Part shown: piece by piece, positions 8,511 through 38,414 of the stretch
Numbering within the stretch: the stretch's first letter is position 1
Layout of the letters: the number at the start of each line of letters is the position of its first letter
Assembly: GCF_016862755.1 (NCBI RefSeq)
Contig: NZ_BONO01000026.1
Span: 1 to 64,000 of the forward strand
Direction of reading: 5' to 3'
Source: Cellulomonas pakistanensis
GTDB lineage: Bacteria; Actinomycetota; Actinomycetes; Actinomycetales; Cellulomonadaceae
DNA length: 64,000 nt
Program-made: the position numbers and the translations under genes
Notes under the pieces: generated by a model
The model's input: the letters and a program-made list of their open reading frames with translations, nothing else
Told to the model about the DNA's origin: nothing
The model's database searches: none

Positions 8511-9497
8511 ATGCCCCAGACGGTCCGGGTCGGCACCCGTGCGAGCGCGCTCGCCCTCACCCAGACCGGGCACGTGGCCGACGCGCTGACCGCCCTCGGC
8601 GGCGGCGAGCACGAGCTCGTGCGCGTCCGGACGGACGGCGACCGGCTCACCGGCTCGCTGGCCAGCCTCGGCGGCACCGGCGTGTTCGTGACCGCGCTGC
8701 GCGACGCCCTGCTCGAGGGCCGGTGCGACGTCGCGGTGCACTCCTTCAAGGACCTCCCGACCGCGGTGTCGCCCGGGCTGGTCGTCGCCGCGGTCCCGGT
8801 CCGGGAGGACCCGCGGGACGCGCTGTGCGCCCGCGACGGCCGGACCCTCGCCACGCTGCCGCGGGGCGCCTCGGTCGGCACCGGCTCGCCGCGGCGGGCC
8901 GCGCAGCTCCGCGCCGCCCGGCCGGACCTGGAGGTCGTCGACATCCGCGGCAACGTGGACACCCGGCTGAAGCGGATCGAGGCCGACCTCGACGCGGTCG
9001 TCCTCGCCCGCGCCGGCCTGGCCCGCCTGGGCCGGCTCGACGCGGTGACCGAGGCGCTGCCGTTCGACGTGATGACGCCCGCCTGCGCCCAGGGTGCGCT
9101 CGCCGTCGAGGTGCGCGCGGAGGACGCCGCCGCCGGCACGCCGCTCGCCCGGGCGCTCGCCGCGCTGGACCACCGGCCCACCCACCTGGCGGTCCTCGCC
9201 GAGCGCGCGCTGCTCAGCCGGCTCGAGGCGGGCTGCGCCGCGCCGGTCGGCGCCCACGCGCACCTCGGGGCGGACGACGTGCTCACCCTCGAGGCTGTCG
9301 TCCTGCGCGTCGACGGCACCGCGGCGCTGCGCCGGACGGCCTCGACGACGCTGGCGGGCGGGGTCGCCGGCCCCGACGGCGCGGACCCCGCCGCAGCGGC
9401 TGGGCGCACCGCGCTGGCCGCCGCCGCGCTCGGGACCCGGCTCGCCGAGGACCTGCTGGCGGCGGGCGCCGCCGACCTCGCGGAGCTCGGCGCGTGA
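8511..9497 (+). CDS. hemC: Hydroxymethylbilane synthase (porphobilinogen deaminase)
   Basis: HemC joins four porphobilinogens into hydroxymethylbilane using a covalent dipyrromethane cofactor. The fold markers [18 protein letters not shown] at the start, [20 protein letters not shown] and [10 protein letters not shown] are all present, and the cofactor-binding Cys242 is in [12 protein letters not shown]. 328 residues, close to the usual 310-320. ATG 8511 is chosen because the conserved N-terminus starts immediately; a GTG at 8448 nearly abutting cgoX would add an unsupported 21 residues. It overlaps hemD by four bases (GTGA). Confidence 0.95.
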
Positions 9498-10390
9498 CGG
9501 GCCCGGACGGCACGACGGCCACCGGACCGCTCGCGGGGCGCACCGTGCTGGTCCCGCGGTCGACCGACGGACCCGACCCCCTGGTGATCGCCCTGCACGC
9601 CGCCGGCGCCGAGCCCCTGGTGGTGCCGCTGATCCAGACGGTCCCCCCGCTCGACCCGACCGAGCTGGACGACGTCCTGCTCGCGCTCGAGGTCGGCTAC
9701 TACGGCTGGGTCGCCGTCACCAGCGCCGCCGCGGTGCCCGTGCTGGTCGACCGCGCCGAGGAGACCGGCCACACCCTGGCCGGCCTGCTCGACGGCGTCC
9801 GGGTCGCCGCGGTCGGCGGGAGCACGGCGCGCGCGCTGCGCGAGGCCGGCGTCCGGGTGGACCTCGTCCCGGTCGGCCGCTCCTCCGCCGCCGCGCTGCT
9901 CGCGGCGTGGCCGCCCGCCGGCGAGGAGCCGGAGCGCGTGCTGCTGCCGCTCGGCGACCTCGCCGCGCCGACGATGGCCGAGGGGCTCGAGGCGCGCGGC
10001 TGGCCGGTCGACGTCGTCGAGACCTACCGGACCGTGCCGGGACCCGCGCCCGAGCCGGAGGTGCACGACGCCTACGCCGCCGGCCGGGTCGGCGCCGTGC
10101 TGCTCACCTCGGGCAGCACCGCGCGCAACCTGCTCGCCATGCTCGGCGCCCCGCCCCCGGGCACGCTGGTGTGCTGCATCGGCGAGTCGACCGCTGCGGA
10201 GGCCCGCCGCGCGGGGCTGCCCGTGCACGCCGTCGCCGACGACCAGACCCCGGGCGGGCTGGTGGCCGCGCTCGCGCGGGCCGCCGCCGCCCGCCCCGAC
10301 CCCGACCCCGTCGCGGCCCACCCCGCCGCGCCGGGCGACGCCCCCGCCGCCGCACCCCGGGCGGCCGACCCCGACGGAGACCACGCATGA
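9494..10390 (+). CDS. hemD: Uroporphyrinogen III synthase
   Basis: HemD closes hydroxymethylbilane with inversion of ring D to uroporphyrinogen III. The family is poorly conserved; recognisable are the start [11 protein letters not shown], the hinge-proximal [29 protein letters not shown], and late [13 protein letters not shown] with the conserved Ser/Thr patch, then [20 protein letters not shown]. The 298-residue product ends in about 40 Ala/Pro-rich residues beyond the domain. Translationally coupled on both sides: GTGA overlap with hemC and ATGA overlap with hemB. Position inside a hem operon supports the call strongly. Confidence 0.92.
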
Positions 10391-11436
10391 GCACCACGGA
10401 GCCCGACGCACCCACCCTCCCGCTGTCCCCCGCCGCGGCGGTCGCCGCGGCGCGGCCCGGACGGGTCCGCCCGCGCCGCATGCGCGGCACCGCGGCCCTG
10501 CGCCGCTCGGTCAGCGAGGTGCGGCTGCACCCGGCGGACCTCGTGCTCCCGCTGTTCGTCAAGGAGGGGCTCGACGAGCCCGCGCCGATCGCCTCGATGC
10601 CCGGCGTCGTCCAGCACAGCCGCGACTCGCTGCGCCGGGCCGTCGTCGAGGCCGCCGCGGCCGGTGTCTCGGCGGTCAACCTGTTCGGCGTCCCGCTGGT
10701 CCGGGACGCCGTCGGCTCCGGCGCGACCGACCCGGACGGCGTGCTGAACCGCGCCATCGCCGACGTGCGCGCCGAGGTCGGCGACGCGCTCGTCATCCAG
10801 GCGGACCTCTGCCTCGACGAGTTCACCGACCACGGCCACTGCGGCGTGCTGACCGCGGACGGCTGGGTCGACAACGACGCCACCCTGGTGCGGTACGCGG
10901 AGATGGCGCTGGTCCAGGCCGAGGCGGGCGCCCACGTGGTCGCGCCCAGCGGCATGATGGACGGCCAGGTCGGCGTGATCCGGGACGTGCTCGACGCCGC
11001 CGGCCGGGGCGACGTCGCGGTCCTCGCGTACGCCGCCAAGTTCGCCAGCGTGCTCTACGGGCCGTTCCGCGACGCGGTCGAGTCGACGCTCGAGGGCGAC
11101 CGCCGGACTTACCAGATGGACCCGGCGAACCGCCGGGAGGCGCTGCGCGAGGTCGCCCTCGACATCGAGGAGGGCGCGGACCTCGTCATGGTGAAGCCGG
11201 CGGGCGCGTTCCTGGACGTGCTGGCCGACGTCGCCGCCGTGAGCACCGTGCCCGTCGCGGCCTACCAGGTCTCCGGCGAGTACGCGATGGTCGAGGCCGC
11301 CGCGGCGCAGGGCTGGCTGGACCGGCGGCGCGCGATCACGGAGTCCGTGCTCGGCATCCGCCGGGCGGGCGCCGACCAGGTGCTGACGTACTGGGCCGTC
11401 GAGCTGGCCCACTGGCTGCGGGAGGAGTGGCGGTGA
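10387..11436 (+). CDS. hemB: Delta-aminolevulinic acid dehydratase
   Basis: HemB condenses two 5-aminolevulinate molecules to porphobilinogen. Both Schiff-base lysines are visible: Lys218 in [13 protein letters not shown] and Lys270 in MVKPAGAF. The metal-site segment reads [16 protein letters not shown] (Cys142, Asp144, Cys152), a mixture of the Cys-rich zinc type and the Asp-rich magnesium type, so metal dependence cannot be called from sequence. 349 residues, with a 40-residue N-terminal Ala/Pro-rich lead. It starts in an ATGA overlap with hemD and overlaps hemL by four bases. Confidence 0.96.
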
Positions 11437-30468: not shown

Positions 30469-31689
30469 ATGACGGAGCTCGAGACCGAGCTCGACACGGT
30501 CGGGCTGGCGGGGCAGGTGCTGGCCCGCCAGGCGACGCACTGCCGGGCTGCGGCGCAGTACCTGAGCGGACGAGGGTCGATCTCGGGGTCGACCGGCCTG
30601 ATCCTGGGAGGCCTCGCGCCCGTCTCCGACGTGGTCGTCCGACTGGGCGTCGCAGGGCTCCGAACCGCGGGGGCGATGTGCGACGGCACGGCATACGCCG
30701 CGCAGCGCTCGGTGGCGGACTACCGGCAGGTCGACGAGGACGCAGGTGCGCGGTTCGCGCGACTCGCGACAGACCTCGCCGTCGGCTGGTCCTCCGGGGC
30801 ACCGGACGCCGCGCCCGGCGCGGCGCAGCTGGGGCCGGCGGAGGCGGTCGCTCCGAATGGGTGGGGAGACACCGACTCGTGGTTCTGGCAGAAGGCCGCG
30901 TCCGCGGGCTCCAGCGTCGGTGACGCCGTGACCGAGGCGCTCGGGCTCGCGGACCGCGCCGCCGGCTGGAGCAGCCCGGGCGGATCGGTCGCGGAAGCCG
31001 TGGACGCCGCGTCGTTCCTGGTGGAGCCGACCGCCAGCGAGAACTGGGCACAGGACATGCGCTGGAGCGCAGGCCTCGTCCTCGGCAGCGTGGACTGGGT
31101 GTTCGAGCAGCTCTGCGGTTACTCCGTCCTCGAGGAAGTCATCTTCAAGCCGTTCGCCGGCGACTCCCGAGAGGTGACCAAGGCTGCGGGGACCTGGACG
31201 AACACCGGCGCATGCCTCTCCGCCATCGGCGTCAACCACGCTCGCCTCGTCTCCGGGACGGTGGACGGATGGCGCGGCGAGGCCGGAGACGCTTTCCGCG
31301 CCGCGATGGCGGTGATCTCGGAGGGGTTCCACCAGCTGACGTTCGTGTGCGACGCCGTAGCGTCCGCGCTCGACGCGGTGTCCGTCGGGATGAAGGGCAT
31401 CTGCGCAGCGATCGGCATGGGACTCAAGAAGCTTGCTCAGCTCCTGATCGAGATCGCCGCCGAGGCCGCCGTGCCCGGTGTCGGCTGGGGCGTGCTCCTG
31501 GCCACCGCCTACTGGAAGGTCGAGAGGATCGTCTCGGTCGTCCGGCTCATCTACACGCTCGTCGAGACGGCACTGAGCCTCGTCGCGGCTTTCGCCGAGG
31601 CCAAGGCCGCGTCGATCAGCGGGATCGCCCGCTTCGAGGATCTCGCGGAGGGCGTCGTCCGCCGGGCGTCCCAGGCGGTGACCGCATGA
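30469..31689 (+). CDS. Module protein A: WXG-like two-region protein of unknown function
   Basis: 406 residues. Residues about 5-100 form an alpha-helical head (LDTVGLAGQVLARQATHCRA) reminiscent of ESX/T7SS substrate heads. The middle is hydrophilic, and residues 245-300 look like a WXG100 unit with Trp268-Arg-Gly in TVDGWRGEAGDAFRAAM. A strongly hydrophobic stretch (about 320-385) follows, then a conserved-looking tail GIARFEDLAEGVVRR. No toxin domain or signal peptide is seen. ATG 30469 has a G-rich ribosome site (GGGGGGCGAGC). It overlaps gene B by four bases (ATGA). A truncated paralogue lies at 37147. Secretion by a type VII system is an inference; no T7SS machinery gene is in the window. 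Confidence 0.7.
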   Translation: MTELETELDTVGLAGQVLARQATHCRAAAQYLSGRGSISGSTGLILGGLAPVSDVVVRLGVAGLRTAGAMCDGTAYAAQRSVADYRQVDEDAGARFARLATDLAVGWSSGAPDAAPGAAQLGPAEAVAPNGWGDTDSWFWQKAASAGSSVGDAVTEALGLADRAAGWSSPGGSVAEAVDAASFLVEPTASENWAQDMRWSAGLVLGSVDWVFEQLCGYSVLEEVIFKPFAGDSREVTKAAGTWTNTGACLSAIGVNHARLVSGTVDGWRGEAGDAFRAAMAVISEGFHQLTFVCDAVASALDAVSVGMKGICAAIGMGLKKLAQLLIEIAAEAAVPGVGWGVLLATAYWKVERIVSVVRLIYTLVETALSLVAAFAEAKAASISGIARFEDLAEGVVRRASQAVTA

Positions 31690-32087
31690 ACGGGCAGCTT
31701 ACGGACGGGCTCGCCGAACGGCTCCACGAGGCGGAAGACCTCGTCCGCCGCACGACCGCCGAGCTCGCTCGCCTGGACGAGCCCGACGAGCGGGACACGG
31801 CGGACGCCCGTCGCCGGGCCGAGGCGGCGCGCTCTGGCTCTCTCGGACCGGACTGGCAGCGTGTCCAGCAACGCATCGACGGCGGGCGGACGACGCTCTC
31901 GGACGTGTTCTCCGGCACCGACACGTCGCCCGAGGCCCAGCGTCTCGTCGGACGCTCCCGCGCGGTGCTCACCGAGGCGCGGGCGGACGCGCAGGACGAC
32001 CCCACCGGGATGACCGCCACCGTGCTCCGCGACATGGACGAGCTCCGCGAGCGACTCCGTGACGTCGTCACCGGACGTCGATCGTGA
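31686..32087 (+). CDS. Module protein B: small helical protein of unknown function
   Basis: A 133-residue, charged, mostly helical protein. Helices 1-2 (LAERLHEAEDLVRRTTAELA) look coiled-coil-like, and the core RRRAEAARSGSLGPDWQRVQ then TTLSDVFSGTDTSPEA is the part best shared with its paralogue at 37537. No catalytic motif, membrane segment or signal. It starts in an ATGA overlap with A and ends in a GTGA overlap with C, so the three are one translational unit. A chaperone or adaptor for A is a reasonable but untested guess. Confidence 0.72.
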   Translation: MNGQLTDGLAERLHEAEDLVRRTTAELARLDEPDERDTADARRRAEAARSGSLGPDWQRVQQRIDGGRTTLSDVFSGTDTSPEAQRLVGRSRAVLTEARADAQDDPTGMTATVLRDMDELRERLRDVVTGRRS

Positions 32088-32512
32088 CCGGAGGACGAGT
32101 CCGGCCGTGGCCGGCCCGGGAGAGTGTGTACCCGACGTGCACGGTCCTCACGGTCGCGAATGCGGCGCAGGCGCTGCACGTCTTCGAGCGCGTCGCCCGA
32201 TCCGTCGGCTACCGGACCGGAGTCCACGCGCCGGGGCACATCCGGGCCGTGCTGGGCCGCCGCTGGCTCGGCCTGGTCGCCGAGACGGTCGGCCTGCCGC
32301 CGGTGCGGCCGTTCCTGCACGTGGAACTCGACGTCGTCGCGCTCCCCGCCGCTCCCACGGGGACGCGGCTGCAGATCACGTGCGGTCGGGGCGGGCAGGA
32401 GCTCGGGGTGGCCACGCGGGTCGCCGGCCTGGTAGAGCGGCTGCTTGCCGAGCTCGACGCCCCCGGCCAGCCCGCTCAGGCGTCGGCATGGGCGTCGGGG
32501 CCACCGGCCTGA
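32084..32512 (+). CDS. Module protein C: small alpha/beta protein of unknown function
   Basis: 142 residues, no signal or membrane segment. Strand-helix pattern: PTCTVLTVANAAQALHVFER, HIRAVLGRRWLGLVAETVGL, FLHVELDVVAL, TRLQITCG, then a C-terminal helix (VATRVAGLVERLLAELDA) and a flexible Ala/Pro end. GTG 32084 overlaps the stop of B. The last gene of an operon headed by a WXG-like protein is often an immunity or chaperone gene, which is the basis for suspecting such a role here. A nonsense-broken paralogue is at 37941. Confidence 0.68.
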   Translation: MTGGRVRPWPARESVYPTCTVLTVANAAQALHVFERVARSVGYRTGVHAPGHIRAVLGRRWLGLVAETVGLPPVRPFLHVELDVVALPAAPTGTRLQITCGRGGQELGVATRVAGLVERLLAELDAPGQPAQASAWASGPPA

Positions 32513-32627
32513 GCCGTCGAGCGACGACGGAGGGGCTGGACAGCGCAGAGCGCGGTGCGGTTAGCGTGGGCGGCGTCGATCCGGCAGCCGCCCCGAGGGA
32601 TCGCCCGTCGACGCCCGAGGAGCGACC

Positions 32628-32828
32628 GTGCAGGTCATCCCCAAGAGCTACGGCAAGCTCATCATCATGACCGCGGAGGAGATGCGGGAGAAGCGGGAGC
32701 AGGAGCTCGCGAGCATCGGCCTCGACCTGGAGACGATCGAGGAGCGGTACGAGACCTGGCAGCTCTCGCCCGAGCAGCGCATCGCGTACGAGGAGTACCT
32801 CCTGCTCGGGAGGCTTCTCGGTGAGTGA
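32628..32828 (+). CDS. 66-residue helical protein, first of an unknown pair
   Basis: A small acidic protein: a short strand-like start (MQVIPKSYGKLIIMT), then helices EEMREKREQELASIGLDLET and SPEQRIAYEEYLLLGRLL. It has the size of an antitoxin but no recognised DNA-binding fold. GTG 32628 follows GAGGAGCGACC. Its last 8 bases overlap the start of the next gene, so the two are co-translated. The 115-base gap before it contains nothing I recognise, but a new promoter there is likely. I do not recognise the family. Confidence 0.65.
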   Translation: MQVIPKSYGKLIIMTAEEMREKREQELASIGLDLETIEERYETWQLSPEQRIAYEEYLLLGRLLGE

Positions 32829-33627
32829 CGACGCACCGGGGAGGCTGCCGGCCGCTCCGGACGAGGCGGCGACCGGTGTCGACCGGCCCGATGGCGACCG
32901 GCTGCGCGGCGAGGTCGACCGGTTCGCCGACGAGCTGCGTGCCACGCTCAGAAGCACCGTCCCCGGAGAGCCGGGCACCTTCCGGGTCGTGCCCGCATCC
33001 GGCCCGACGCCGTACCTTGCCGTCCAGCAGACGCCGGTCGAGGGCATCGGGCTCGCCGTCGACGCGGTGGTCGTCCTCCGGCTCCGTGCGACCTTCGAGT
33101 GCGGGTGGGACCACACCGGCACGTTCCTGGCCGTCCGTCGCTCGACCATGAGCGCCACGGCCGAGGGCACCGACGAGCCGCTGTTCCGGTACGACTACGA
33201 CGCCGGCTCGGACGAGAAGGTCCCGGCAGCGCACCTCAACGTGCACGGGCACCGCGACGAGCTCGTGTTCGCGATGATGGCCGCCGGCCACCGGCTCCGC
33301 GGCCGCGCCCGCACGTCGGCGGTGCGCCGCGGCCGTGTCCCTCGGGTGTCGACGCTGCACTTCCCGCTCGGCGGCCACCGGTTCCGCCCGTCGTTCGAGG
33401 ACGTCCTCGACATGCTGGTCCGCGAGTTCGGCCTCGACACCCGGCCGGGCTGGCGTGCCGCGATCTGCGCCGGGCGGGCGCGCTGGCGCGCGGTCCAGCT
33501 CCGGGCGGCCGTGCGGGACGACCCCGGTGCCGCGGTGGAGGCGCTGGCCGGGCTCGGCTACGAGGTCCGGCTACCGCCGGTGGCAGCCGTCGCCCGCGCG
33601 GACGCGGCGCCCGGTCAGTCGCAGTAG
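32821..33627 (+). CDS. 268-residue protein of unknown function, second of an unknown pair
   Basis: No signal or membrane segments. The N-terminal third has a helical start and FRVVPASGPTPYLAVQQTPV; the middle has FECGWDHTGTFLAVRRSTMS, LFRYDYDAGSDEKVPAAHLN followed by VHGHRDELVFAMM; then RVSTLHFPLGGHRFRPSFED and DVLDMLVREFGLDTRPGWR. The HLNVHGHRDE and LHFPLGGHRFRP segments look like conserved functional motifs with several His and Asp/Glu. I believe similar proteins occur in other actinobacteria but cannot name a family. GTG 32821 overlaps the small gene upstream; the 3' end overlaps the converging gene by 13 bases. Confidence 0.7.
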   Translation: MSDDAPGRLPAAPDEAATGVDRPDGDRLRGEVDRFADELRATLRSTVPGEPGTFRVVPASGPTPYLAVQQTPVEGIGLAVDAVVVLRLRATFECGWDHTGTFLAVRRSTMSATAEGTDEPLFRYDYDAGSDEKVPAAHLNVHGHRDELVFAMMAAGHRLRGRARTSAVRRGRVPRVSTLHFPLGGHRFRPSFEDVLDMLVREFGLDTRPGWRAAICAGRARWRAVQLRAAVRDDPGAAVEALAGLGYEVRLPPVAAVARADAAPGQSQ

Positions 33628-34070
33628 TCGCACTTCCCGGTTGCCGGCAGCACCATCGAGCACGTCGGGCACGTGGCGGTGAACTCCACGGGCTCCGGCT
33701 TCTTCGCGCGCGGCGTCGTGGCGGCACGCGGCGCGCGCGGGGCCTTAGGCGCCGTCGACCGCGTCCGGGCCGGTGCCGCGGCGCGCGCGGCCGCGGCGGC
33801 CTGCGGCACGTCGAACCCGCGCCGGCCGAGCAGCGCCTGCGCCGCCTCCTCGCCGCCGTGGAACTCGTCCGCGCCGGCGAGCCGGCCGGTGGCGAACCGG
33901 TGCGCGACCCCGAGGATCGCGATCGCCGGGTAGGGCCGGTCCTCGTGGAGGAAGAACCCGCCGCCTGCGGGGAAGCCGTAGACGCCGAGGAAGCCGTCGG
34001 CCCCGCGGGAGTCGTGCTCGGCGATGGCCTGGAGGATGTGCGCGCGCGTCACGGCGGAGAAGGTCGCCAC
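33615..34070 (-). CDS. McrA-type head-domain protein with C-terminal zinc ribbon
   Basis: Residues 1-80 closely follow the pattern of the N-terminal head domain of ScoMcrA-like restriction enzymes: VTRAHILQAIAEHDSRGADG, FLGVYGF, AILGVAHRFATGRL, DEFHGGEEAAQALLGRRGF. ScoMcrA adds SRA, sulphur-binding and HNH domains after this head; here there is only a Lys/Arg/Pro/Ala-rich linker and a C-terminal ribbon CPTCSMVLPATGKCDYC. So it is a nuclease-less head-plus-ribbon protein of 151 residues. GTG 34070 is chosen since it begins right at the domain; a longer frame to 34160 exists. It converges on, and overlaps by 13 bases, the unknown 268-residue gene. Confidence 0.65.
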   Translation of the reverse strand: MATFSAVTRAHILQAIAEHDSRGADGFLGVYGFPAGGGFFLHEDRPYPAIAILGVAHRFATGRLAGADEFHGGEEAAQALLGRRGFDVPQAAAAARAAAPARTRSTAPKAPRAPRAATTPRAKKPEPVEFTATCPTCSMVLPATGKCDYCD

Positions 34071-34249
34071 GTCGCAGAAGCCTACGTCGTCGCCGGCGAC
34101 CCATCCCGTGCCGGGGGCCGGCCGCGGCTGTGACGTCCCTTGCACCCGGCGGGCGCGCACCTGCCCGGCCTCGTCCGCGGGCGGTCACGCCGGGCCCCGA
34201 TCCCCCGCTCACCGCGCGGACCAGCGCCCCAGCCGGTAGGAACAGGGGG

Positions 34250-35314
34250 ATGACCACCCGCGTCGGCTTCCACAGCTCGCACGAGCAGGTCCATCCGTCC
34301 GCCCTCCTCGCGGCGGTCCAGCACGCGGAGGAGGCGGGCTTCGACGCCGCCATGTGCTCCGACCACTGGGCTCCGTGGGGAACCAACCAGGGTCACTCCG
34401 GCTTCGCCTGGACGTGGCTCGGCTCCGCGCTGGCCACCACCCGCCTGCCGTTCGGCACGGTGAACGCCCCGGGCCAGCGGTACCACCCGGCGATCATCGC
34501 CCAGGCGGCCGCGACGCTGGCCGCGATGTACCCCGGCCGGTTCTGGGTCGCGCTCGGTTCCGGCGAGAACATGAACGAGCACATCACCGGCGACCCCTGG
34601 CCGCCGAAGCCCGAACGGGACGCCCGGCTGCGCGAGTGCGTGCAGGTCATCCGCGCCCTGCTCGCCGGCGAGGAGGTGACCCACCACGGCCTGGTGACGG
34701 TCGACCGCGCGCAGCTCTGGACGCTCCCGGACGTCCCGCCCCGGCTGATCGGGCCCGCTGTGACGCCCGAGACGGCGCGGGCGCACGCCGACTGGGCCGA
34801 CGGCCTGGTCACCGTGAACCAGGACCTCGAGACGATGCGCCGCGTCGTCGGCGAGTACCGCGACGCCGGCGGCCGCGGGCCGATCTCGCTCCAGGTGCAC
34901 GTGTCCTACGCGACGGACCCGGGCGAGGCCTGGCGCCTGGCCCGCGAGCAGTGGGCGGGCAACGCCGCCGGCCCGCCGGCCGCGTGGGACATCGCGACGC
35001 CCGAGGCGTTCGACGAGCTCGCCGCCACGGTCGACGACGACACGCTCGCGACGGGCGTGGTGATCGAGCACGACCCGGCCCGGCTGCGGGACCGGCTCGT
35101 CGAGCTGGTGGAGGTGGGCTTCGACGAGGTCTACCTGCACCAGGTCGCCACCGACGTCCGGCCGGACCACGGGAAGCACGACGACGCCGCGCCCACGGTG
35201 ACGCACCCGCCGTCGTCGCTGGACGCGTTCATCGACCTGGCCGCCGAGCACGTGCTGCCCGCGCTGCGCGCGGTCGAGGCGGGCACCGCCGGCGACGAGG
35301 ACGCCGCGTCGTGA
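34250..35314 (+). CDS. LLM-class flavin-dependent oxidoreductase
   Basis: A 354-residue luciferase-like monooxygenase-fold enzyme binding FMN or F420. Markers: VGFHSSHEQVHPSALLAAVQ, AGFDAAMCSDHWAPWG, the WVALGSGENMNEHITGDPWP strand-turn common to this class, and a late VGFDEVYLHQV. Similar proteins of a subfamily adjoining alpha-amylase family genes are known, and here the GH13 gene follows with a GTGA overlap, so the two act together, probably in a glucan or trehalose-linked redox step that is not understood. ATG 34250 directly follows AGGGGG. Confidence 0.88.
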   Translation: MTTRVGFHSSHEQVHPSALLAAVQHAEEAGFDAAMCSDHWAPWGTNQGHSGFAWTWLGSALATTRLPFGTVNAPGQRYHPAIIAQAAATLAAMYPGRFWVALGSGENMNEHITGDPWPPKPERDARLRECVQVIRALLAGEEVTHHGLVTVDRAQLWTLPDVPPRLIGPAVTPETARAHADWADGLVTVNQDLETMRRVVGEYRDAGGRGPISLQVHVSYATDPGEAWRLAREQWAGNAAGPPAAWDIATPEAFDELAATVDDDTLATGVVIEHDPARLRDRLVELVEVGFDEVYLHQVATDVRPDHGKHDDAAPTVTHPPSSLDAFIDLAAEHVLPALRAVEAGTAGDEDAAS

Positions 35315-37071
35315 GGATCCGCGACACCGGCGACCTGTGGTGGAAGAACGCCGTCGTCTACTGCCTGGACGTCGAGACGTTCATGGACTGGAACGACGAC
35401 GGCGTCGGCGACCTGCCCGGGCTGGTGCAGCGGCTCGACCACCTGGCCGACCTCGGGATCACCTGCCTGTGGCTGATGCCGTTCTACCCGACCGCCGACC
35501 GGGACGACGGCTACGACATCACCGACTTCTTCGGCGTCGACCCCCGGCTCGGCGACGCCGGGGATCTGGTCGAGCTCGTCCGCACCGCTAAGGACCGCGG
35601 CATCCGGGTCATCGCCGACCTCGTCGTCAACCACACGTCCGACCGGCACCCGTGGTTCAAGGCCGCGCGGAGCAGCCCGGACAGCCCGTTCCGGGACTTC
35701 TACGTCTGGCGCACCGAGGAGCCGCCGCCCACCGGCGACCAGGTCGTGTTCCCCGACCAGGAGGACGGCATCTGGACGTACGACGAGCAGGCGGGCGCCT
35801 GGTACCGGCACCGGTTCTACAAGCACCAGCCCGACCTCAACACGGCGAACCCGCGCGTCCGGGACGCCATCGCGAAGGTCGTCGGGTACTGGGCGGAGCT
35901 GGGCCTGTCCGGGTTCCGGGTCGACGCGGTGCCGTTCATGCTGGCCGACGCGGCGAGCGGCCCGCACGACGACATCGAGCACCCGCACGAGTTCCTCAAG
36001 GCGCTGCGGTCGTTCCTCAGCCGCCGCACCGGCGACGCGATCCTCATGGGCGAGGTCAACCTGCCCTACGAGGAGCAGCGGCTGTTCTTCGGGGACCTGG
36101 ACGCGGACGGGTCCGCCGAGGGCGAGGAGCTCAACCTGCAGTTCGACTTCGTCGCCATGCAGCAGATGTACCTGTCGCTGGCCCGGCAGGACGCGGGCGC
36201 GCTGGCGCAGGCGCTGGCGGACCGGCCGCACATCCCGCGCGACGCGCAGTGGGCGACGTTCGTCCGCAACCACGACGAGCTGACGCTGGACAAGCTCACC
36301 GACGCCGAGCGCGCCGAGGTGTTCGCGGCGTTCGGCCCCGACGAGGACATGCAGCTCTACGGGCGCGGGCTGCGCCGCCGGCTGCCCCCGATGCTCGACG
36401 GCGACCCGCGCCGGGTCCGGATGGTCTACTCGCTGCTGTTCACGCTGCCCGGCACGCCGGTGCTGTTCTACGGCGAGGAGATCGGCATGGGCGAGAACCT
36501 CGCCGCCGACGGCCGGCTCGCGGTGCGCACGCCCATGCAGTGGACGTCGGGGCGCAACGGCGGCTTCTCGGCGGCGCCGCCGCGCCGGCTCTCGGGCCCC
36601 GTGGTCGAGGGCGGCTTCGCGCCCCAGCACGTCAACGTCGCGGACCAGCGCCGGGACCCCGACTCCCTGCTGTCGTTCGTCAAGACGCTCGTCCGCCGGT
36701 ACCGGGAGTGCCCGGAGCTGGGCTGGGCGGAGCGCGCGGAGGTCCTGGACCAGCCGCACGCCGCCGTGCTCGCGCACCGGTCGACGTGGCAGGACGCGTC
36801 GATGATCGCGCTGCACAACCTCGGGCCCGAGGCGGTCACGGTCCCGCTGCGGCTGCGCGACCTGGCCCGGGAGCCGGGCGACGCGGGGCCGGCGGACGAC
36901 ACGGCGACCACGCGCAGCGCGGCGGGCGACGACGAGCCGGTGCGGCTGGTCGACCTGCTCGAGGACGGCGCGTGCACGGTGGACCCGGACGGGCGCGTCG
37001 AGCTGGAGCTGCCGGCGTACGGCTTCCGCTGGCTGCGCGTGGTGCAGCCGGGCTCGCGCCGGCTGCTCTGA
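35311..37071 (+). CDS. Trehalose-synthase-like GH13 alpha-amylase family enzyme
   Basis: A 586-residue cytosolic GH13 barrel. The N-terminus (WWKNAVVYCLDVETFMDWND) is of trehalose synthase type. Conserved regions: VIADLVVNHTSDRHPWF, GFRVDAVPFM with nucleophile Asp205, ILMGEVNL with acid/base Glu248, FVRNHDELTLDK with Asp322. The catalytic triad is complete. A C-terminal beta domain ends the protein. Trehalose synthases isomerise maltose and trehalose; the true substrate of this branch may differ. It is coupled to the LLM oxidoreductase gene by a GTGA overlap. Confidence 0.88.
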   Translation: MRIRDTGDLWWKNAVVYCLDVETFMDWNDDGVGDLPGLVQRLDHLADLGITCLWLMPFYPTADRDDGYDITDFFGVDPRLGDAGDLVELVRTAKDRGIRVIADLVVNHTSDRHPWFKAARSSPDSPFRDFYVWRTEEPPPTGDQVVFPDQEDGIWTYDEQAGAWYRHRFYKHQPDLNTANPRVRDAIAKVVGYWAELGLSGFRVDAVPFMLADAASGPHDDIEHPHEFLKALRSFLSRRTGDAILMGEVNLPYEEQRLFFGDLDADGSAEGEELNLQFDFVAMQQMYLSLARQDAGALAQALADRPHIPRDAQWATFVRNHDELTLDKLTDAERAEVFAAFGPDEDMQLYGRGLRRRLPPMLDGDPRRVRMVYSLLFTLPGTPVLFYGEEIGMGENLAADGRLAVRTPMQWTSGRNGGFSAAPPRRLSGPVVEGGFAPQHVNVADQRRDPDSLLSFVKTLVRRYRECPELGWAERAEVLDQPHAAVLAHRSTWQDASMIALHNLGPEAVTVPLRLRDLAREPGDAGPADDTATTRSAAGDDEPVRLVDLLEDGACTVDPDGRVELELPAYGFRWLRVVQPGSRRLL

Positions 37072-37146
37072 CCGGTAGGTGCTGTCGTACCGCCTGTGGG
37101 CCTCTGAGCAGTCGATACGATCCCGGGGACCACCGGAAGGAGCATG

Positions 37147-37540
37147 ATGGCGGCGCTCGACGTCGATCTCGACACGGTCTCCCTGGCCGGGCAGGTGCTC
37201 TCGCGTCAGGCGGGGCACTGCCGGTCGACGGCCGCCTACCTCAGCGTTCACGGGTCCATCAGTGGATCGACCGGTCTGATCCTCGCAGGCTTGGCACCGG
37301 TGTCGGACGCGGTGACGGCCGCAGGGACAGGGGTCCTGCGCACCGCGGGATCCGTGTGCGACGCGACCGCGCACGCCGCGCAGCGATCGGCCGACACGTA
37401 CGCGTCGACCGATCACGACGCCAGGACACGATTCGAACGCCTCAGCGGCGCAGGCACGCACATCCGTCTTCGACAGCATCGCCCGGTTCGAGGACCTGGC
37501 CGAGGGCGTCTTCCGCCGTACCGGGCAGGCGGCGGCATGA
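37147..37540 (+). pseudogene. Module protein A' : truncated, frameshifted copy of A
   Basis: The first ~98 codons (LDTVSLAGQVLSRQAGHCRS, then SVHGSISGSTGLILAGLAPV) are very similar to protein A at 30469. After RFERLS the frame of A is lost. From about 37450 a different frame encodes the A tail (SIARFEDLAEGVFRRTG followed by QAAA and a stop at 37538-37540). The locus is about 820 bases shorter than A, a length difference not divisible by three, so the WXG-like centre and the hydrophobic part are gone. GGAAGGAG precedes the ATG pair 37144/37147. The N-terminal frame instead runs on into gene B', giving a possible 266-residue fusion. Confidence 0.8.
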
Positions 37541-37944
37541 GTACGGACCGCATACGTCTGCAGCGGGAGCCGCTCGCCGGGCGCCTCCGGGAGATCGAGG
37601 AGCTGGTCCGCGCCGCGACAGCACAGATCGAGCAGCTCGCAATGCCCGACGACCGTGACGCCCGCCTTGAGGCCGAGCGTGCGGAGGCAGCACGATCCGG
37701 TGCCCTCGGGCGGGACTGGCAGCGCGTCCAGGAGCGGATCGACACGGGTACCGTCACGCTCGCCGACGTCTTCAGCGGGGTTGACGACTCCCCTGAGGCG
37801 GAGCACCTCCGCGCCAGGTCCTCCGCCACCCTGCGTTCTGCGTCGGAGGAGTCGGAGCACGACCCCGACGGTTCGGCGGCGGAGCTGCTCCGCGAGATCC
37901 TCGCGGCCCGTCGCCCGATCGCCGACCGCAACCCGACGTCGTGA
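37537..37944 (+). CDS. Module protein B' : intact paralogue of B
   Basis: 135 residues in the same order and overlap arrangement as B: ATG 37537 overlaps the A' tail stop (ATGA), and its end overlaps C' (GTGA). The conserved core is LEAERAEAARSGALGRDWQR, VQERIDTG and VTLADVFSGVDDSPEAEHL, clearly related to B. No inactivating change is seen. Because the A' head now reads in frame into this gene, B' could be made alone or as a fusion with the A' head. Confidence 0.72.
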   Translation: MSTDRIRLQREPLAGRLREIEELVRAATAQIEQLAMPDDRDARLEAERAEAARSGALGRDWQRVQERIDTGTVTLADVFSGVDDSPEAEHLRARSSATLRSASEESEHDPDGSAAELLREILAARRPIADRNPTS

Positions 37945-38414
37945 CCGGCTCGTCCTCGCTGGTTCCCCCGTGGCCGCAGGACGCGTCCGTCCACCCCGGC
38001 TGCGAGATCAGGTGCGCCCTTCCCGTCGGCCCCGCGCTCGAGACCGCGGCGCGCGTGCTCTCGGGCCACGGGTACCGGGTCCACCGCGAGTCCTCCTCGA
38101 CCGTCGTCGCCGAGCTGGGCGGTCGGCTGCGGGCGGAGTGACTGGAGGCGCTGATCGGGTTCACCCCGGCGCGCGGACCGTTCCAGCACGTCGTGATCGA
38201 ACTGCAGGCAGCACCGGCAGGCACCGCCAGCACCGCCACATCCGTCGTGCTGACGTGCCGCAACGGCTTCCGCCAGGTCGGGGCGCCGCGCCGCGTCGCG
38301 AGTCTGGTGCACGAGGTCGTCGACGCGCTGGCCACGCCCGGGGCGCCGGCGTCCTTCTCCGGCTGGCGAGCGAACCCGCCGTGGGATCCCGAGTGGCCGT
38401 CCGCGGCGTGGTGA
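37941..38414 (+). pseudogene. Module protein C' : paralogue of C broken by an in-frame stop
   Basis: The frame from GTG 37941 encodes 66 residues ending GGRLRAE, then TGA at 38139-38141, then continues in the same frame to 38414 with LEALIGFTPARGPFQHVVIE, VVLTCRNGFRQVGAPRRVAS and LVHEVVDALATPGAPA, which parallel the second half of protein C (GRRWLGLVAETVGL...HVELDV...RLQITCGRGGQELGVATRVAGLVERLL). A TGG-to-TGA change at the Trp of C is the simplest explanation. Either the gene is dead or two fragments are made. Confidence 0.72.

Follow-up and report, generated by a model that had tools for sequence, protein, structure and literature searches.

Gene content of the locus

Within the 64,000-nucleotide stretch of Cellulomonas pakistanensis DNA analyzed here (the window), three genes follow one another on the forward strand. 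Gene A (30469..31689; 406 aa) encodes an EspC/PE-like hairpin (AN; residues 1-103, with YRQVD) fused to a WXG100/PPE-like part (AW; residues ~166-404, with WRG). Gene B (31686..32087; 133 aa) belongs to a family without a name, with the core R-x-G-x-x-G-x-x-W-Q-x-x-Q-x-R-I-D ... G-x-D-x-S-P-E-A, and gene C (32084..32512; 142 aa) encodes a small alpha/beta protein that was seen within this family (Cellulomonadaceae) only. The A/B and B/C junctions are 4-base overlaps (ATGA/GTGA), as the original prediction had it, and the whole triad (30469-32512) is intact. A second copy with the same gene order and overlaps lies on the same strand at 37147-38411 and is decaying, which was likewise anticipated. 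Its A' head (37147..37443) holds the AN domain with YASTD retained, while AW is mostly gone; the A' tail (37439..37540) encodes the final ~32 residues of AW and the stop in a different frame. The offset from A is 6678 for the A' head and 5854 for the A' tail, i.e., a net loss of 824 bp, which is not a multiple of three and shifts the frame. Due to this deletion, the A' head is in frame with the intact B' (37537..37944), and both share a single open frame of 266 aa (37144-37944). C' (37941..38411) is broken at codon 67, where an in-frame TGA occurs.

The relation between the two copies is far beyond chance (A' head versus A: E 3e-33 in a whole-genome search). At E<=10, A matches nothing in its own genome apart from itself and both parts of A', and B matches only B and B' at E<=1e-4. 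Long identical stretches had been claimed for the heads of A and A', but the heads are 74% identical over 167 nt and 65% at the protein level. At 52% identity between B and B', the copies are old. A/A' and B/B' are nonetheless mutually nearer (65% and 52%) than to the copies of C. gelida or C. persica (39-47%). These sequence identities suggest either that the module was duplicated long ago or that it was gained twice from the same source.

Domains and motifs of gene A

The WXG100 matches of A itself stay under cut-off (PF06013: 20.4 bits, cut-off 27.3; TIGR03930: 20.2 bits, cut-off 44.85). PF06013 is matched at E<=0.1 by seven of 11 relatives of A, with a best E-value of 6.2e-07, and the best E-values of relatives for PPE and EspA_EspE are 0.0046 and 0.0055, the latter being matched by two of 11 at E<=0.1. 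Neither PPE nor EspB_PPE is among the Pfam matches of A itself. For EspC (PF10824; cut-off 23.5 bits), the A' head scores 13.8 and the AN of locus L066 17.0, both under cut-off, and the other nine of the ten proteins tested alongside the latter are unmatched. The WXG-like character proposed for A is borne out by its motif: WxG is present in all 11 full-length A proteins, and W268-G270 is placed by the structure model in a turn between two helices (234-267 and 271-333). YxxxD/E occurs at the end of the AN hairpin in all 11 full-length A proteins, in A' and in nine of 17 other AN tested; replacement of the Tyr by F gives FxxxD in 4/18 and FxxxE in 2/18 of the AN tested. The model of A is of moderate quality (pLDDT 68, pTM 0.66). 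Its best solved match is EspB, with ~12% identity in the structural alignment, though helical folds match easily; Foldseek gives EspB an E-value of 0.14 and returns nothing at E<=0.001.

Past the WxG, hydrophobic 19-residue windows start at residues 290-329 and 354-360; a further set starts at 43-46 in AN. The hydrophobic C-terminal region includes an invariant turn, V335-P336-x-x-G339-W340. A ends 136 residues past the WxG, and its C-terminal helices are conserved in the 11 full-length members, none of which carries a variable toxin domain beyond the WXG part. No toxin family is matched in Pfam or NCBIfam, consistent with the original prediction that A has no recognizable toxin, and no PADLOC defence model is matched by A, B or C at E<=0.1. 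A toxin-antitoxin or defence reading, which finds no support in PADLOC, Pfam or NCBIfam, was rejected.

Genes B and C and the distribution of the module

Searches for the B family covered 396 genomes of the order and, separately, a class sample of 384. In the order sample, 24 genomes from eight families have a B match; these are not independent, as 10 come from one family, and the eighth family is represented by the doubtful G515 alone. The class sample yields nine genomes, five of which are outside the order. An AW part is encoded upstream of B in 42 of the 44 B matches checked (five of these outside the order), a count that leaves out the second, weaker B matches of G321, G428 and G476. In the first set, this applies to 37 of 38 B copies, on the same strand and within 0.85 kb, the remaining copy being the one with the A' remnant; in the second set, it applies to five of six, the exception being G515, whose weak B match is probably false. 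The core R-x-G-x-x-G-x-x-W-Q-x-x-Q-x-R-I-D, then G-x-D-x-S-P-x-A, keeps its near-invariant residues across families. No convincing Pfam or NCBIfam family was found for B, nor a credible solved relative (a single match at E 0.71). A TipAS match (E 0.047) and the weak coiled-coil-type Pfam matches of single B relatives were treated as noise.

C is the least conserved gene of the triad (30-33% identity to the gelida group versus 52-54% for A), and a search of 22 loci from other families gave no match to it. Its predicted structure resembles KA1/BamC-type domains, a likeness that says nothing about chaperoning. EspG, considered as an identity for C, is absent among the fold matches listed for the model, and a relation to the third gene of L070-L072 was rejected (hhalign probability 0.2).

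Of the 221 genomes of the family, 24 carry a match to A, which is full-length in 11 of them. The ordered triad occurs in eight of these 11 (the genome studied here, C. gelida, C. persica, G020, G097, G060, G126 and G076); in G102, G105 and G082, A-B is followed by a WXG100-like gene, assigned by eye, and a gene not detectably related to C. The module thus recurs as predicted, the triad being present in seven other Cellulomonadaceae genomes and A-B far more widely, and the possibility that the three genes never occur together elsewhere has fallen away. A scan of genome contigs picked up two loci, belonging to C. gelida and C. persica. AN and AW are both present in 29 loci, fused in 17 and split into two genes in 12; in a quick, midpoint-rooted tree of AW without support values, the fused forms group together except for L138. 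No B is found in the stretch searched around L012 and L015, WXG-part matches in G025:C17 and G014, in a neighbor search that left out ten weaker WXG-part matches in the family.

Base composition and putative insertion sites

GC3 amounts to 0.90, 0.87 and 0.89 for A, B and C, 0.84 and 0.85 for the A' head and B', and 0.96 and 0.90 for the two pieces of C'. The glycosyltransferase, LLM and TreS-like genes have values of 0.98-0.995, and the genes between C and LLM 0.93-0.96. The composition had been described as less GC-extreme than that of the flanks; this stands for GC3 (0.84-0.90 in A, B, C, the A' head and B') but hardly for overall GC, which is only slightly low (0.73 versus 0.763; 1-kb SD 0.029), with lower stretches elsewhere in the window. 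GC3 of the module genes in nine other carriers, taken for the genes alone without the genome background, is 0.88-0.99, with the exception of G105 (0.83-0.89).

The kin of the genome include Cellulomonas gelida and C. persica. In the relative G009, ~86-87% identical DNA runs across, with 72 bases at the A-B-C site and 101 bases at the A'-B'-C' site. G016 is without both copies, its first site lying where conservation is lower (583 bases versus 2.8 kb), and in G001, where the alignment covers the second site only, that site is empty. None of the three genes turned up in a tblastn search of these syntenic stretches in G009, G016 and G001, and A is unmatched in all three genomes at E 0.001. The empty sites in relatives together with the low GC3 favor an insertion in this lineage over loss in the relatives, as far as sequence comparison can tell. 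The borders of both module copies, inspected for mobile element ends, share no repeat and have no direct repeat of at least 12 bases. The two right borders have one 10-mer in common. Genes D and E were rejected as module members, since the DNA from 32532 onward is present in G009 without A-B-C. A plasmid-borne module was also considered and rejected, since a search of 72,556 plasmid records gave no match to A at E 1e-5.

Association with type VII secretion

The predicted tie to eccC-type genes of type VII secretion systems is well reflected in the order sample: EccC scores over the NCBIfam cut-off in 22 of the 24 B genomes versus 75 of the 372 without B (p 9e-13, a value that ignores kinship). 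The two B genomes without EccC over cut-off are G377, which is 77% complete, and G515. Among the family carriers examined, 14 of 15 have EccC, the miss being G060 with an assembly in 840 contigs. B lies within 5 kb of an EccC match in eight of the 22 EccC-positive B genomes, and also in G083 and G231; such proximity occurs in three families (f1, f4 and f17). The row in G083 comprises a pair of WXG100 genes and a pair of mycosin-like proteases (TIGR03921, under cut-off), followed by AN, AW, B, an unassigned gene and EccC, a description that leaves out one called ORF. The row in G336 is alike, but has subtilase-type proteases and one extra gene before AN. In both rows, the gene before EccC, unnamed by NCBIfam and Pfam, is taken for an EccD-type gene by its position only. 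AW-B sits within an ESX row in G083, G231 and G336. In the genome studied here, EccC and EccD score over cut-off on contigs C8 and C4, respectively; the module lies on another contig, C26, and is not beside ESX genes. EspG (PF14011) scores over cut-off in none of the 34 module genomes, with weak matches in G069 and G374; the sensitivity of this search is unproven, as no control genome matched either.

Proposed function and alternative explanations

PE-PPE/EspB-type substrates are already known. A-B-C is probably an accessory ESX (T7SSa) module, in which A would be an EspB-like substrate, B its dedicated partner and C a lineage-specific helper. A would be a single-chain PE-PPE/EspB-like protein, with the AN hairpin, carrying the YxxxD export signal, packing on AW, and EccC would export it folded. 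B, as a cytosolic partner, would bind AW at its tip and keep it export-competent or target it, as EspG does for PE-PPE and EspK for EspB, while C may be a second chaperone. The tip-binding role is proposed for B because it accompanies AW in the tested loci with fused and with separate AN alike, and because none of the 34 module genomes has EspG over cut-off, so that B may do the job of EspG/EspK there. Counted in support of this reading are gene order and conservation, AN-AW fusion and fission, the motifs, the EccC link and the EspB-like model, as well as the absence of the module from syntenic relatives and the decay of the second copy.

An effector/immunity arrangement, suggested by the original prediction, did not hold up: no variable toxin domain, toxin family or PADLOC match was found, and the B motif is conserved across families. 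Immunity proteins do not typically keep a motif conserved across families, which speaks against such an arrangement, and a classical toxin-immunity pair is not the most likely reading of A-B-C. In a variant that we regard as unlikely, A is a membrane-active (pore-forming) antibacterial effector exported by the T7SS, with toxic hydrophobic C-terminal helices, and C or B is the immunity protein. The hydrophobic windows past the WxG, around the V335-P336-x-x-G339-W340 turn, would suit such an effector, as would the low conservation of C and the accessory nature of a module with one decaying copy; moreover, the accessible text of PMC10434224 reports a glycine-zipper LXG toxin of T7SSb. Yet all 11 full-length A proteins share a conserved C-terminal region that ends without a variable domain, no toxin family is matched, B retains its near-invariant residues across families, and C has no match in the 22 searched loci from other families.

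It is rather improbable that A, once secreted, acts as a structural or channel-forming component of the ESX system, akin to EspB rings or PPE-type pores, and serves the export of other cargo with B and C as exported parts. EspB is the best solved match and oligomerises (PMC9811218, in the part available), and in G083, G231 and G336, AW-B is embedded in the ESX row as a core part would be. Of the 97 EccC-positive genomes in the order sample, however, 75 have no B; the module is therefore not core. The hosts, which we take to be monoderm, also have no outer membrane to cross. We give very little credence to the absence of any secretion link, with B as a generic coiled-coil protein and the EccC association reflecting the shared ancestry of a few families. 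B carriers do cluster in few families, EccC is not within 5 kb of B in 14 of the 22 EccC-positive B genomes, and single B members have weak coiled-coil-type Pfam matches, but AW precedes B in 42 of 44 cases, five of them outside the order, and proximity of B to EccC within 5 kb recurs in f1, f4 and f17.

Returning to an accessory ESX module, we tentatively propose, as a possibility short of an even chance, that B represents a new T7SSa chaperone/targeting class replacing EspG/EspK where EspG is unrecognizable, and that in A an EspC-like/PPE-like pair, otherwise encoded by two genes, is naturally fused, with B serving both states. To our knowledge, substrate choice by non-mycobacterial ESX systems when EspG is missing is an open question. 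In the libraries used, neither the fused EspC-like/PPE-like form in this order nor the B family was found under a name. A search of the accessible literature returned no description of the module, which is not proof of its being unpublished, and the available main text of a survey of T7SS variants (PMC11217815) names neither Cellulomonas nor EspC. The module would offer a small test case outside pathogens, in which a fused substrate and its split counterparts share a nearly constant partner family. B would gain a family name, and annotators could find candidate ESX substrates via B.

Comparison with known systems

In ESX-1, EspC adjoins an EspA/EspE-type protein and a third small protein. The module resembles EspC/EspA (EspF/EspE) in placing an EspC-like part beside an EspA/EspE-like part and a third small protein, with weak Pfam matches; it differs in that the EspC matches are under cut-off and EspA_EspE is matched in two of 11 relatives at E<=0.1. 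With PE-PPE and EspG (ESX-3/ESX-5), it shares two co-encoded helical partners with YxxxD and WxG and, putatively, a dedicated chaperone, whereas PPE is not among the Pfam matches of A and EspG over cut-off was found in 0/34 genomes, with two weak matches and no positive control. Like A, EspB of ESX-1 is a single chain with a PE-like part carrying YxxxD and a PPE-like part carrying WxG, but identity is as low as ~12% in the structural alignment and the EspB_PPE model is not among the matches of A. According to the part of PMC9811218 available, YxxxD and WxG lie together at one end of EspB and EspK holds the other tip, as EspG does on PE-PPE. EspK binds via a 246-residue alpha/beta domain (same source), compared to the 133 aa of B. 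LXG toxins with Lap1/Lap2 belong to the T7SSb of Bacillota, and A lacks their variable C-terminal toxin domain; the likeness is that of a substrate with two small co-encoded proteins. Lap1 targeting factors carry FxxxD, as stated in the accessible text of PMC9600955, a motif also present in four of the 18 AN tested.

The deletion that cuts A', the gene in the second copy of the module for the fused EspC-like and WXG/PPE-like parts, leaves an open frame at 37144-37944 of the window, in which an intact EspC-like domain (AN) and an intact B' are joined. Instead of pure decay, this frame could represent a putative expressed AN-B fusion.

Just 3' of the intact A-B-C triad lies an overlapping gene pair, at 32628-32829 (66 aa) and 32821-33627 (268 aa). 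The 268-aa gene has no Pfam or NCBIfam match, and PADLOC returned zero matches for both genes. The DNA of the pair (32628-33627) is syntenic in G009, a relative that carries neither copy of the module, and the pair is therefore regarded as unnamed and separate from A-B-C.

Elsewhere, relatives of the WXG part of A occur at 9670-10596 of locus L012 and 8839-9834 of locus L015 (minus strand), from genomes G025 and G014. B has no match in the searched stretches of these loci; a small gene, EspC-like by eye, precedes the WXG-part relatives in both. At three loci that lack C (L070, L071 and L072), A-B is followed 3' by a gene judged by eye to be WXG100-like, and a protein of approximately 200 aa from a different unnamed family is also encoded 3' of B. 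In compact type VII secretion (ESX) loci, the module is adjoined by mycosin-like or subtilase-type proteases, which occur as tandem pairs (L076, 9433-12314; L132, 14687-18081; L075, 3649-6863).
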